A stretch of 64,000 nt of DNA from Flavivirga eckloniae (lineage in GTDB: Bacteria; Bacteroidota; Bacteroidia; Flavobacteriales; Flavobacteriaceae): NCBI RefSeq assembly GCF_002886045.1, contig NZ_CP025791.1, positions 4,789,001 through 4,853,000 of the forward strand, read 5' to 3'. A program made the position numbers and the translations under genes. This document shows positions 41,717 through 63,646 of this stretch, piece after piece. The notes under the pieces were generated by a model. The model saw only the letters and a program-made list of their open reading frames with translations, did not search any database and had not been told where the DNA came from. Position 1 is the first letter of the stretch. Every line of letters starts with the position of its first letter.

Positions 41717-42418
41717 TTAACTTAGTGCAGTATATGTAATACCTGTGATTATTGCTATTCCAAAACTAATTAAAGTGCCTATTAAAATGTATTCTGTAAG
41801 TTGTCTGGATTTCGATTCTTTTAAGTCTCCAAATCTAAAAACCGACTTGGCAGTAATTAAAAAACCGACTGCTTCCCAGTGGTCTGCCATTATAAATATA
41901 AACACTAAAATACGTTCTAAAATACCAATAATTTTACCTGCATCCTTAAGCGACTCGTTATTTTTAGTAAGTTCTAAAATATTCCACTTTAAAAAAATGG
42001 TTTTCATAATTATAGAGACCGGAATTGTTAAAAATGCTAAACAGGTTAGCAACAATAGATTGTCTTCGGTTACAAGAGTTCCTAACTGAAGTGTGTTTTC
42101 TGAATATAAAAAATAGCAGCCAATGATAACTAAAATATGAAGCAGCTGATCTATAAAAAACAATAACCGTTTTGTTTTTTTATTTTGTAGAATAAGTTTA
42201 AAACCATCAATTATAAGATGCGAAACACTTATGGTTAATATATATGGCCATAATGATACATCCCATAATAAGATTATTAATAGTATAGCATGGATGAGTA
42301 CATGCAAATATAGTTTTGGTGATTTTAATTTTTTTTCTTCTTTTTCTTCAACCCATTTTTGGGGTTGTAGAAAAAAATCACCAATTAAGTGGGCCAATAA
42401 AAGTTTAAGTAGTATCAT
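41717..42418 (-). CDS. DUF3307 membrane protein
   Basis: A 233-residue, strongly hydrophobic protein. The N-terminal 110 residues match DUF3307: LLAHLIGDFFLQPQKWVEEKEEKK, YLHVLIHAILLIILL and SVSHLIIDGFKLILQ, with conserved His/Asp in a membrane setting (H11, D15, H40). Several more helices follow. The family has no known activity; HxxxD and HxxID in membranes hint at metal or proton chemistry. It lies one base after the SatD-like gene and five bases before the thioesterase gene, so the three are almost certainly co-transcribed. In streptococci SatD stands next to a membrane partner gene (SatE) in an acid-tolerance operon, a comparison from memory that I cannot verify here. Confidence 0.82.
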   Translation of the reverse strand: MILLKLLLAHLIGDFFLQPQKWVEEKEEKKLKSPKLYLHVLIHAILLIILLWDVSLWPYILTISVSHLIIDGFKLILQNKKTKRLLFFIDQLLHILVIIGCYFLYSENTLQLGTLVTEDNLLLLTCLAFLTIPVSIIMKTIFLKWNILELTKNNESLKDAGKIIGILERILVFIFIMADHWEAVGFLITAKSVFRFGDLKESKSRQLTEYILIGTLISFGIAIITGITYTALS

Positions 42419-42419
42419 G

Positions 42420-43049
42420 TTAAGTTAAGGTGTTTATTTTTTTTCTGTACATAAGATCCAACTCCATGACTTCGTCTAAGTGTGCACGTTTTTGTCTGGT
42501 ACTCACGGCATTTTGATTAATACCTGTAAGTTTACCTAATTCACTTTGTAGCGCATCGGGGTTTTCAATACTTAGTTTAACTATTTCAGCAGAATTAATA
42601 GTCCAATTATCCATAGCTATTAATGCTAGCTTAAAATATAAATTAAGCTCATGATCTATATCAGAATGATTTGTTTTAATACGTAGGTTTTGTTTTTCCT
42701 TTTTAAGAGTTTCTAGGGTTTCTCCAGAGAATATAAAGGCTTCTCCGTTAGATTCTGTTACTTGCTCTCCTTCGTAAGTTTTATTCCCAACGCCAATAGC
42801 TAAGCGAACATCTAAACCATGAATGGATTTTATACAGGCTTTTATATATAGTGCAGCTATAAAGCAGGAACTAATATCTTTAATTTCTATTTGAAAGCTA
42901 TCGCCACGATAAATTTCCCAATAGGCCTTATCTGTGCTTAAAAAGGACAAGGCTTCCTTTAATACATTTATCCATGTTTCTGGGCTTACCTGAGTTCTAG
43001 ACTTAATGATATCGCCCGTTATGACGCTTGTAATTATATTCGGTATCAT
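42420..43049 (-). CDS. SatD-like protein with C-terminal helix-turn-helix
   Basis: A 209-residue protein resembling the SatD family. The N-terminal region has three motifs that look like those of class III nucleotidyl cyclase folds: ITGDIIKSR (residues 10-18), IYRGDSFQIEI (46-56) and LDVRLAIGVGN (79-89). Whether it has activity is not known. The C-terminal part (about 167-189, LQSELGKLTGINQNAVSTRQKRA) is a good helix-turn-helix. It therefore looks like a DNA-binding regulator with a sensor domain of cyclase-like fold. Its ATG is one base away from the first of six phased palindromes (43051-43210), which are the obvious candidate operators. It is one base before the DUF3307 gene. Confidence 0.78.
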   Translation of the reverse strand: MIPNIITSVITGDIIKSRTQVSPETWINVLKEALSFLSTDKAYWEIYRGDSFQIEIKDISSCFIAALYIKACIKSIHGLDVRLAIGVGNKTYEGEQVTESNGEAFIFSGETLETLKKEKQNLRIKTNHSDIDHELNLYFKLALIAMDNWTINSAEIVKLSIENPDALQSELGKLTGINQNAVSTRQKRAHLDEVMELDLMYRKKINTLT

Positions 43050-43050
43050 A

Positions 43051-43210
43051 TATCACGTTTTTAAGTGATAAGCAAATATATCACGTTTTTACGTGATAAA
43101 CAAAAATATCGCATAAAAACGTGATAATTTAACATATCACATAATTGTGTGATAAATATAAATATCGCATAAAAACATGATATTTCAATATATCACGCTT
43201 TTGCGTGATA
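43051..43210. repeat. Array of six 20-bp palindromes in exact 28-bp phase
   Basis: Palindromes start at 43051, 43079, 43107, 43135, 43163 and 43191, every 28 bases, each 20 bases long with 8-base AT-rich spacers. Copies: TATCACGTTTTTAAGTGATA, TATCACGTTTTTACGTGATA, TATCGCATAAAAACGTGATA, TATCACATAATTGTGTGATA, TATCGCATAAAAACATGATA and TATCACGCTTTTGCGTGATA. The consensus half-site is TATCACGT. Copies 3 and 5 have the same core in opposite orientation (A-run centre in place of T-run). The array fills the space between rmuC and the SatD-like gene. It looks like a stack of operators, most likely for the SatD-like protein; each copy would also fold into a hairpin in RNA. Confidence 0.9.
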
Positions 43211-43221
43211 AAAAAATATCG

Positions 43222-44547
43222 TTAATTGTTACTATCTTCTTCAGCACGCTTAATAATAGCTTCAGGTAAAGCTTTTTTAGCTTTAGCACCCATTTTTTTA
43301 AGTTTTTCTACACTGGTAACCAAGTTGCCTTTACCGTCTACAAGCTTGTTCATGGCAGCCGAATAGTCACTTTTTGCAGCATCAATTTTTTTGCCGACCC
43401 CGGTTAAATCTTTTACTAAACCTTCAAACTTATCGTATAACGCACCTGCTTGTCTGGCTATTTCTATAGCATTACGTTGTTGTTTTTCATTATTCCACAT
43501 GGTATCGACCGTACGAAGTGTGGCCAGTAACGTAGAAGGTGTTACAATAACAATATTTTTTTCGAAAGCTTTATTGTATATGGCACTGTCTTCGTTTACA
43601 ACAATAGCAAAAGCAGGTTCTATAGGAATAAACATGAGTACAAAATCCGGCGATTCTATATCGTAAAGGTCCTGATAGTTTTTTTCTGAAAGTTGGTCGA
43701 CATGTTTTTTAATGGAATTAACATGTGCTTTTAAAAAGGGTAGTCTATCTTCTTCTTCGGCATTAACCAAACGTTCATAATCTGTTAATGATACTTTAGA
43801 ATCGATAACCATTTTTTTGTTATCAGGAAGATGCAACACAACATCTGGCAATACTCTGGAACCATCTTCTAAGGTGAAACTTTGTTGCACAAAATATTCT
43901 CGGTCTTTTTCTAATCCAGATTTTTCAAGAACGCGTTCTAAAACCAATTCGCCCCAATTTCCTTGCATTTTACTGTCGCCTTTTAAAGCTCTGGTTAGGT
44001 TGGTCGCTTCCTTGGTCATTTGCTGGTTTAAGTCCTTTAAGCCCAATAATTGTTCTTTTAAAGCAGAATGCATACTAATGCTTTCTTTTTGTGATGCTTC
44101 TACTTTTTTCTCAAAACCCTGTATTTTTTCTTGTAACGGATTTAAAATGTTTTTAATGTTTTCTTTATTCTGAAGTGTGAATTTTTCAGACTTTTCATCT
44201 AATATTTTAGTGGCCAATAACTCGAAATCCTTGCGCAACTGTTCTTGACGCTCTTCCAGCTCTTTATCTCGCTTTAAGTTTAATTGCTGAAGGTTTTCGT
44301 ATTCAGTATTTTTTCTGGTTAATTCAGAATTCAAGAACTCTTTCTCTCGTCTTATTTCTTCACGCTCATTTTCAATTTTAGATAGGTTTTGCTTTAACTC
44401 ATCAATAGTTGCGCTCATTTGGTTTTGGCGTTCTTCCAGCGTGCTTTTTTCACTTTTACCTTTAAGTTTAGTAAACAAAATGCCTAAATAACCGCCTATG
44501 GCAGCAGAAATGAGTATGGAAATTATAAGAATGAGATTGTCGTTCAT
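43222..44547 (-). CDS. rmuC: RmuC-family DNA recombination protein
   Basis: A 441-residue protein with one N-terminal membrane helix (LILIISILISAAIGGYLGILF), a long coiled coil (about 30-150, rich in Glu, Lys and Gln heptads) and the C-terminal RmuC nuclease-like domain. Family blocks visible: GDSKMQGNWGELVLERVLEKSGL, SRVLPDVVLHLPDNKKMVIDSKVSL, VLMFIPIEPAFAIV and IVTPSTLLATLRTVDTMW. RmuC limits DNA inversions in Escherichia coli. The gene ends 11 bases from the palindrome array and reads towards it. Confidence 0.92.
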   Translation of the reverse strand: MNDNLILIISILISAAIGGYLGILFTKLKGKSEKSTLEERQNQMSATIDELKQNLSKIENEREEIRREKEFLNSELTRKNTEYENLQQLNLKRDKELEERQEQLRKDFELLATKILDEKSEKFTLQNKENIKNILNPLQEKIQGFEKKVEASQKESISMHSALKEQLLGLKDLNQQMTKEATNLTRALKGDSKMQGNWGELVLERVLEKSGLEKDREYFVQQSFTLEDGSRVLPDVVLHLPDNKKMVIDSKVSLTDYERLVNAEEEDRLPFLKAHVNSIKKHVDQLSEKNYQDLYDIESPDFVLMFIPIEPAFAIVVNEDSAIYNKAFEKNIVIVTPSTLLATLRTVDTMWNNEKQQRNAIEIARQAGALYDKFEGLVKDLTGVGKKIDAAKSDYSAAMNKLVDGKGNLVTSVEKLKKMGAKAKKALPEAIIKRAEEDSNN

Positions 44548-61066: not shown

Positions 61067-61070
61067 TTTT

Positions 61071-61119
61071 GATGGTTGATGGTTGATGGTTGATGGTTGA
61101 TGGTTGATAGTTGATGGTT
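61071..61119. repeat. Seven-copy GATGGTT tandem repeat
   Basis: Seven consecutive 7-base units: five perfect GATGGTT, then GATAGTT and GATGGTT, starting four bases after the haem protein stop. A similar decayed run continues into 61120-61140. It is in the 163-base gap before the glycosyltransferase. Confidence 0.85.
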
Positions 61120-61229
61120 GACAGTGTTCAGTGGTTAGTTTGTCGTGATTAGTATGGGGTTGTTGGTGTGAAGTTTTTTAAATGAATTATGATATTGTAG
61201 ATTTTTAACAAAAAAACAGTTGTGAATTA

Positions 61230-63517: not shown

Positions 63518-63646
63518 AGCAAAAAAGATTTACTGTTAGAGTGGGGCAAAACAATTAACCTTCAAATGAAGGAATAATATGATTCAAATGTAGTAAAATA
63601 TTTTCAAATACTAAAGTTTAAAAAATTGTATGGTATTGTAAATGTG

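Follow-up and report, generated by a model that had tools for sequence, protein, structure and literature searches.

Operators of phage repressors are dimer sites placed in series over the regulator's own promoter, and plasmid partition sites of the ParR/TubR type consist of phased repeats that adjoin the binder's gene. An array of phased dyads with likeness to both was analysed in Flavivirga eckloniae, upstream of a gene pair coding for a SatD-like protein and a DUF3307 protein. The window, i.e., the whole stretch analysed, comprises 64,000 nucleotides (contig NZ_CP025791.1, positions 4,789,001 to 4,853,000). Like the phage operators, the array appears from its sequence to set serial dimer sites over the promoter of its own regulator. 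However, satD arrays mostly have three or four, and up to 12, equally spaced dyads, the protein family is another one, and the period of 28 or 29 is held across the whole phylum and beyond. With partition sites the array shares phased sites beside the gene of the predicted binder, but it has no NTPase partner, overlaps a predicted promoter, and is chromosomal in the window.

The SatD family (PF16264; sat locus of S. mutans) is labelled "secretion and acid tolerance" (PMC10326533). Open-access literature searches found nothing on DNA binding by SatD or on its operators. Here, the array is read as a cooperative autorepressor operator of the satD-DUF3307 operon, which the SatD-like protein would bind, perhaps in response to a nucleotide. 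This reading is given a probability of about 0.86.

Six phased dyads upstream of the satD-like gene

The array spans 43051-43210 and is composed of six 20-bp dyads in exact 28-bp steps with gaps of 8 bp (Table 1). An earlier note, made from the letters alone, had placed six palindromes in strict phase, and all its starts were recovered. Because the gap within a dyad equals the gap between dyads (8 bp), the array can equally be read as 12 half-sites in a row, similar to TATCRC/GYGATA, which alternate in orientation (TATCAC, GTGATA, and so on) every 14 bp. It lies within the 172 bases that separate rmuC, whose stop codon is 43222-43224, from the satD-like start codon. As the note had said, copy 1 is one base away from the ATG (complement of 43047-43049).

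Complementary pairs per 10 were counted as 7, 8, 6, 9, 5, and 8 in copies 1-6. Copies 2 and 6, described earlier as perfect, are so over the 8-bp arms flanking a non-symmetric TTTT, but not over 20 bp (8/10 pairs each). The opposite direction once assigned to copies 3 and 5 holds for the central A/T tract only, the dyads being directionless. In the window, 5 sites matched the copy 2 20-mer when up to 3 mismatches were allowed, against 0.02 expected. The best three-dyad score was 35/36, whereas the maximum of 100 dinucleotide shuffles was 28. The gaps of 8 bp do not suit a CRISPR array, which requires unique spacers of about 20-50 bp, and the array had rightly been set apart from CRISPR.

A plain dyad search of the own genome with 2 mismatches was dropped as uninformative (712 hits vs. 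655 in the control), and therefore a four-half-site pattern was used. In the 5.67-Mb genome, exact matches to this pattern were confined to the satD array, with two extra hits (1 and 2 mismatches) vs. 3 for the reversed control. Every exact match in the 12 genus genomes searched was upstream of satD. One-mismatch hits away from satD were found once each in 4 of the 12 genomes, and control hits once each in 2.

Arrays and predicted promoters at SatD-like homologues

SatD-like homologues were found in 64 of 149 relative genomes and, by profile, in 106 of 395 genomes of the phylum, the own genome being counted in both. With 80 named loci (the best 80 of 586) added and identical proteins removed, 237 distinct homologues were obtained, including distant ones whose profile scores fall as low as 34 bits. 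The array test covered 250 bases upstream and looked for three dyads, with a half-site spacing of 14 bp inside each dyad and of 14 or 15 bp from one dyad to the next, against 100 mononucleotide shuffles. A first, looser finder (free spacings 11-18, 20 shuffles) was superseded by stricter finders.

The test was passed by 190/237 homologues, i.e., the score was above every one of the 100 shuffles. An earlier run on 163 of the 237 gave 124 arrays vs. 1 hit in 646 control stretches from the same loci, and this single hit, at -600 in locus L151, may belong to the 12-copy array of L151 itself. In a free scan of periods 18-48, at least 31/36 was reached at 185/237 loci, with period 28 (147) or 29 (38) only, and by 3/237 shuffles. 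The 190 arrays have three copies in 122 cases, four in 51, five in 9, six in 4, 12 in 1, and fewer in 3. The longest counted, upstream of the L151 satD, has 12 dyads at period 29. Among the failures, L075, L148, and L149 apparently have two copies, judged by eye.

The letters of the half-sites are variable, i.e., TATCAC in the genus and TATTCC, TATCGT, TATCGG, TATTAC, TATTAG, TATAAG, and others elsewhere, while far more than a hundred species share the 28/29-bp spacing. Of the earlier expectation that phased TATCACG palindromes lie beside homologues, the phased arrays stood, but the TATCACG letters were limited to the closest genera. The note had said that the dyad, and not the sequence alone, is kept; in the homologues, spacing and dyad symmetry persist across lineages as letters change. 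A search for residues setting period 28 vs. 29 gave a diffuse list (K90, S183, S160, and others) and was not used.

Some homologues are plasmid-borne. A Vibrio lentus plasmid carries a SatD-like/DUF3307 pair with a 28-bp array of TTAGCC half-sites, scoring 36/36 at 12+16 and 33 at 14+14. Ten loci (seven plasmid records and three IMG/VR contigs) were scored with fixed spacing, and 8/10 beat 100/100 shuffles. Four of these eight score only 27/36, two of the four being near-identical Pseudoalteromonas, and among the ten the Salinivibrio proteolyticus and Segatella copri loci failed the shuffle test. Gammaproteobacteria arrays are clear in Vibrio lentus and weaker in others. Two IMG/VR contigs classed as viral (L280 and L281) have SatD-like and DUF3307-like genes and GGCC-type half-sites with period 29. 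On the Salinivibrio proteolyticus plasmid NZ_CP114585.1, an array-like TTAGCC site with 1-2 mismatches (252246-252291) comes right after DUF3307 and precedes an S9 peptidase gene, a possible extra target.

The Bacteroidetes promoter consensus is given as TTTG (-33) and TAnnTTTG (-7) in PMC2483708. By this consensus, a promoter toward satD is predicted inside the array, with TTTG-N20-TATATTTG at 43104-43073. TTTG-N17-23-TAnnTTTG was found in 42/237 loci (0.7 expected), and the spacer was 20 bp in 35/42. In the TAT class, i.e., loci whose half-sites start with TAT, 108 loci have a -7 box, and in 61 of them its TA doubles as the final TA of a dyad. The box is commonest after the second (38/162) and third (27/161) dyad counted from the start codon. 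The period of 28 equals 8 + 20. The promoter does not account for the spacing, because period 29 is common and the Vibrio lentus array has period 28 with TTAGCC half-sites.

The SatD-like protein and its predicted recognition helix

The covariation set was made from 163 TAT-starting arrays, reduced to 81 representatives with less than 70% N-domain identity; the other 27 of the 190 arrays were excluded. Half-site positions 1-3 are uninformative, since they are fixed by the TAT-class selection. Over 203 protein columns, the top mutual information with half-site positions 4-6 was shown by T184, N180, and A181, and these were again the top three with 90 and 63 representatives. Taken one by one, positions 4, 5, and 6 have T184 at the top, and position 7 has N180. 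At the dyad-centre positions 9-10, residues 184, 180, and 181 rank only 155-185, and at linker positions they are never first. All three are within helix 179-188 of the structure model.

Distant pairs sharing all three residues had the same half-site triplet in 58% of 19 pairs vs. 7.7% otherwise. Counts of residue and triplet were made in 101 TAT-class loci, relatedness not thinned. E184 goes with CGG, CTG, or CGT in 17/18, Q184 with AAG or TAG in 24/29, R184 with TAC in 11/12, K184 with TCC or GCC in 6/9, and T184 or S184 with CAC in 12/16. This covariation between half-site letters and the predicted recognition helix of the protein encoded alongside ties SatD to the array DNA.

The structure model of the SatD-like protein is confident, with a predicted local distance difference test (pLDDT) of 95.6 and a predicted template modelling score (pTM) of 0.92. 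The predicted helix-turn-helix (HTH) is comprised of helices 168-175 and 179-188, the latter being read as the recognition helix. HTH families, including Sigma70_r4 (32/55 at an expectation value, E, of 0.1 or below), match many SatD-like members. The modelled N-domain shows the palm fold of class III cyclases. D13 and D50 are invariant in 55 sequences and align with the metal-binding Asp pair of Ma1120, though in a sequence match of E 0.037. The GG(D/E)EF signature was not found, i.e., RGDSF in the window protein and RGDEF in others, with the first G of GG replaced. The likeness to class III adenylyl cyclases and GGDEF diguanylate cyclases is one of predicted fold; the missing motif and the HTH fusion are differences.

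The window protein had no PF16264 match at E≤1. Its genome also gave none, in a search that was silent in control genomes too. PF16264 was matched by 42/55 relatives at E≤0.1. Among 8 relatives scanned (cut-off 29 bits), L065 (50.4), L038 (32.2), and L079 (30.9) passed, L285 (24.5) was below, and L081, L151, L281, and L289 had no match at E≤0.1. Relatives of about 42-59% identity match the profile nearly full length, HTH part included. To the profile-positive L038 and L065, the window protein is 59% and 42% identical over nearly its whole length, which makes it a full-length homologue. PADLOC and PHROGs gave neither defence nor phage assignment for the protein, and the phage tblastn was negative.

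The DUF3307 gene is the same-strand downstream neighbour of the satD-like gene in 234/237 loci. PF11750 covers residues 2-120 of the window DUF3307 protein, and the fold search had no PDB match at E≤0.001. The satD-linked DUF3307 proteins share a second conserved C-terminal block outside PF11750, AGxYIGxLERLLVF...FLIAAKSIFRFGDL...TEYILIGTLLSFG, in which E168, R169, K191, R195, and E209 are invariant. Elsewhere in the window, a tandem 7-mer TTGATGG (61069-61121, 7.6 copies, 95% matches) and an imperfect tandem 22-mer (63561-63609, 2.3 copies) were found.

Table 1. Features of the satD-DUF3307 locus, in window positions
Feature	Position	Strand	Remark
Operator array, six dyads	43051-43070, 43079-43098, 43107-43126, 43135-43154, 43163-43182, 43191-43210	.	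predicted
Promoter -33 element TTTG (predicted)	43101-43104	-	consensus match
Promoter -7 element TATATTTG (predicted)	43073-43080	-	20 bp from -33 element
Dyad copy 2	43079-43098	.	occupies predicted -33/-7 gap and shares its outer TA with the -7 box
SatD-like regulator, 209 aa	42420-43049	-	cyclase/GGDEF-fold N-domain and predicted C-terminal HTH
N-domain, residues 1-148	42606-43049	-	class III cyclase/GGDEF palm fold; invariant D13 and D50
Predicted recognition helix, residues 179-188	42486-42515	-	residues 180, 181, and 184 covary with half-site letters
DUF3307 protein, second operon gene	41717-42418	-	all-helical, probable membrane protein; begins one base after the satD-like gene

Proposed mechanism and competing explanations

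The earlier guess of cooperative operators of the SatD-like protein gains support, on sequence grounds, from the arrays at homologues, their periods of 28/29, and the recognition-helix covariation. It is very probable that the SatD-like protein binds the array. SatD dimers would bind the 20-bp dyads through the C-terminal HTH, each TATCAC half-site taking one recognition helix, and residues 180, 181, and 184 would read half-site positions 4-7. A turn of DNA takes 10.5 bp. Dimers 28-29 bp apart (28 bp being 2.67 turns) would touch, load cooperatively, and spiral round the DNA, so that each dyad would be rotated about 240 degrees and the fourth would face as the first. Because copy 2 is in the -33/-7 gap and copy 1 over the start region, the filled array would silence the satD-DUF3307 operon, and expression would fall as SatD accumulates. 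Repression is the probable outcome of binding. The N-domain, with its two invariant metal-type Asp residues, would bind a nucleotide tightening or loosening the array, and such a nucleotide is the signal thought of first; judged from the modelled fold and the invariant residues only, the chance that a nucleotide is the effector is about even. The embedded promoter, the cyclase-like N-domain, and the Gammaproteobacteria array are beyond what the earlier note expected.

Several points weigh against the autorepressor reading. The array test was failed by 47/237 homologues, among which 13 with a differing HTH (L164, L166, L168-L173, L175, L176, and L180-L182) are without an array; their HTH reads TQEESA/TQVETA ... 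SRQA/TRQA ... SL.RAHW, and DUF3307 is still downstream. The full TTTG-N-TAnnTTTG promoter is present in only 42/237 loci. On its own, the window protein had no match among Pfam families, those of HTHs included, and its C-terminal part was hardly probed by the fold search. In the covariation, linker ranks reach 5th for N180 and 8th for T184. In 81 phylogenetically independent pairs over 202 columns, V97 was 1st (p 1.4e-6), T184 2nd (1.8e-6), and K204 3rd (2.6e-6). T184 was 3rd in 74 pairs of at least 50% identity, E110 outranks it among distant pairs, and residues 178-186 are identical in 4 of the 21 listed pairs despite a changed half-site. E110, V97, and K204 are tentatively taken as lineage markers. 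Because they also score, shared ancestry may still account for part of the covariation. Finally, the sequence does not discriminate repression from activation.

The leading rival explanation is that SatD binds the array yet activates the operon, or does both depending on ligand, which is considered unlikely. Copies 3-6 are upstream of -33, as is possible for activator sites. However, copy 2 fills the -33/-7 gap with its end overlapping the -7 box, and the shared TA recurs in more than half of the TAT-class loci with such a box.

That another DNA-binding protein occupies the array, SatD being merely a target, is highly improbable. A clade-wide regulator could track phylogeny, and the columns V97, K204, and E110 that score in the pair tests are outside the HTH. 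However, it is the recognition-helix residues of SatD itself that covary best with the letters, though not at dyad centres, and exact matches are solely at satD. In another phylum, the Vibrio lentus plasmid again has a 28-bp array, with different letters, at a SatD-like/DUF3307 pair.

Slightly less credible is a role of the dyads as RNA hairpins or as an attenuator/terminator in the leader. Every dyad is foldable, and copy 2 looks like a minus-strand terminator, though there are 3 such sites in the stretch vs. 2.3 expected. But copies 2-6 are upstream of the predicted start point and therefore would fall outside the operon transcript, and unbroken arms have just 4-8 pairs. Moreover, the letters follow the DNA-reading helix, and the Rfam scan gave only microRNA and small RNA look-alikes far under gathering scores.

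A partition (centromere-like) or other maintenance site, with SatD as a ParR/TubR-like adaptor, has a smaller chance still. It would fit the repeated phased sites beside the binder's gene and the homologues on plasmids. However, the nearly constant partner is DUF3307 and no NTPase that forms filaments, the copy in the window belongs to a single contig of 5.67 Mb, and the array overlaps the promoter consensus. A functionless satellite can practically be dismissed, as the earlier note had done, because slippage generates tandem repeats but here dyad and phase outlast changes of the letters, 185 loci have no periods but 28 and 29, and letters track the recognition helix.

As a tentative view, which we hold less probable than its opposite, SatD-like proteins may be a large unrecognised class of transcription factors. 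In this class, a cyclase fold would sense (or make or break) a nucleotide and so build up or take apart a helical nucleoprotein filament over the phased operators. The readable one-helix code would have switched repeatedly among bacteria, with the geometry fixed at 28-29 bp. Under the autorepressor reading, a little-studied "acid tolerance" family can be tested as a family of transcription factors, for which a target and a recognition code are predicted and the higher-order geometry is fixed. The 190 arrays supply far more than a hundred natural pairs of protein and operator, a natural experiment in which joint change of a regulator and its sites can be followed, and the SatD array gives a handle on the function of DUF3307.
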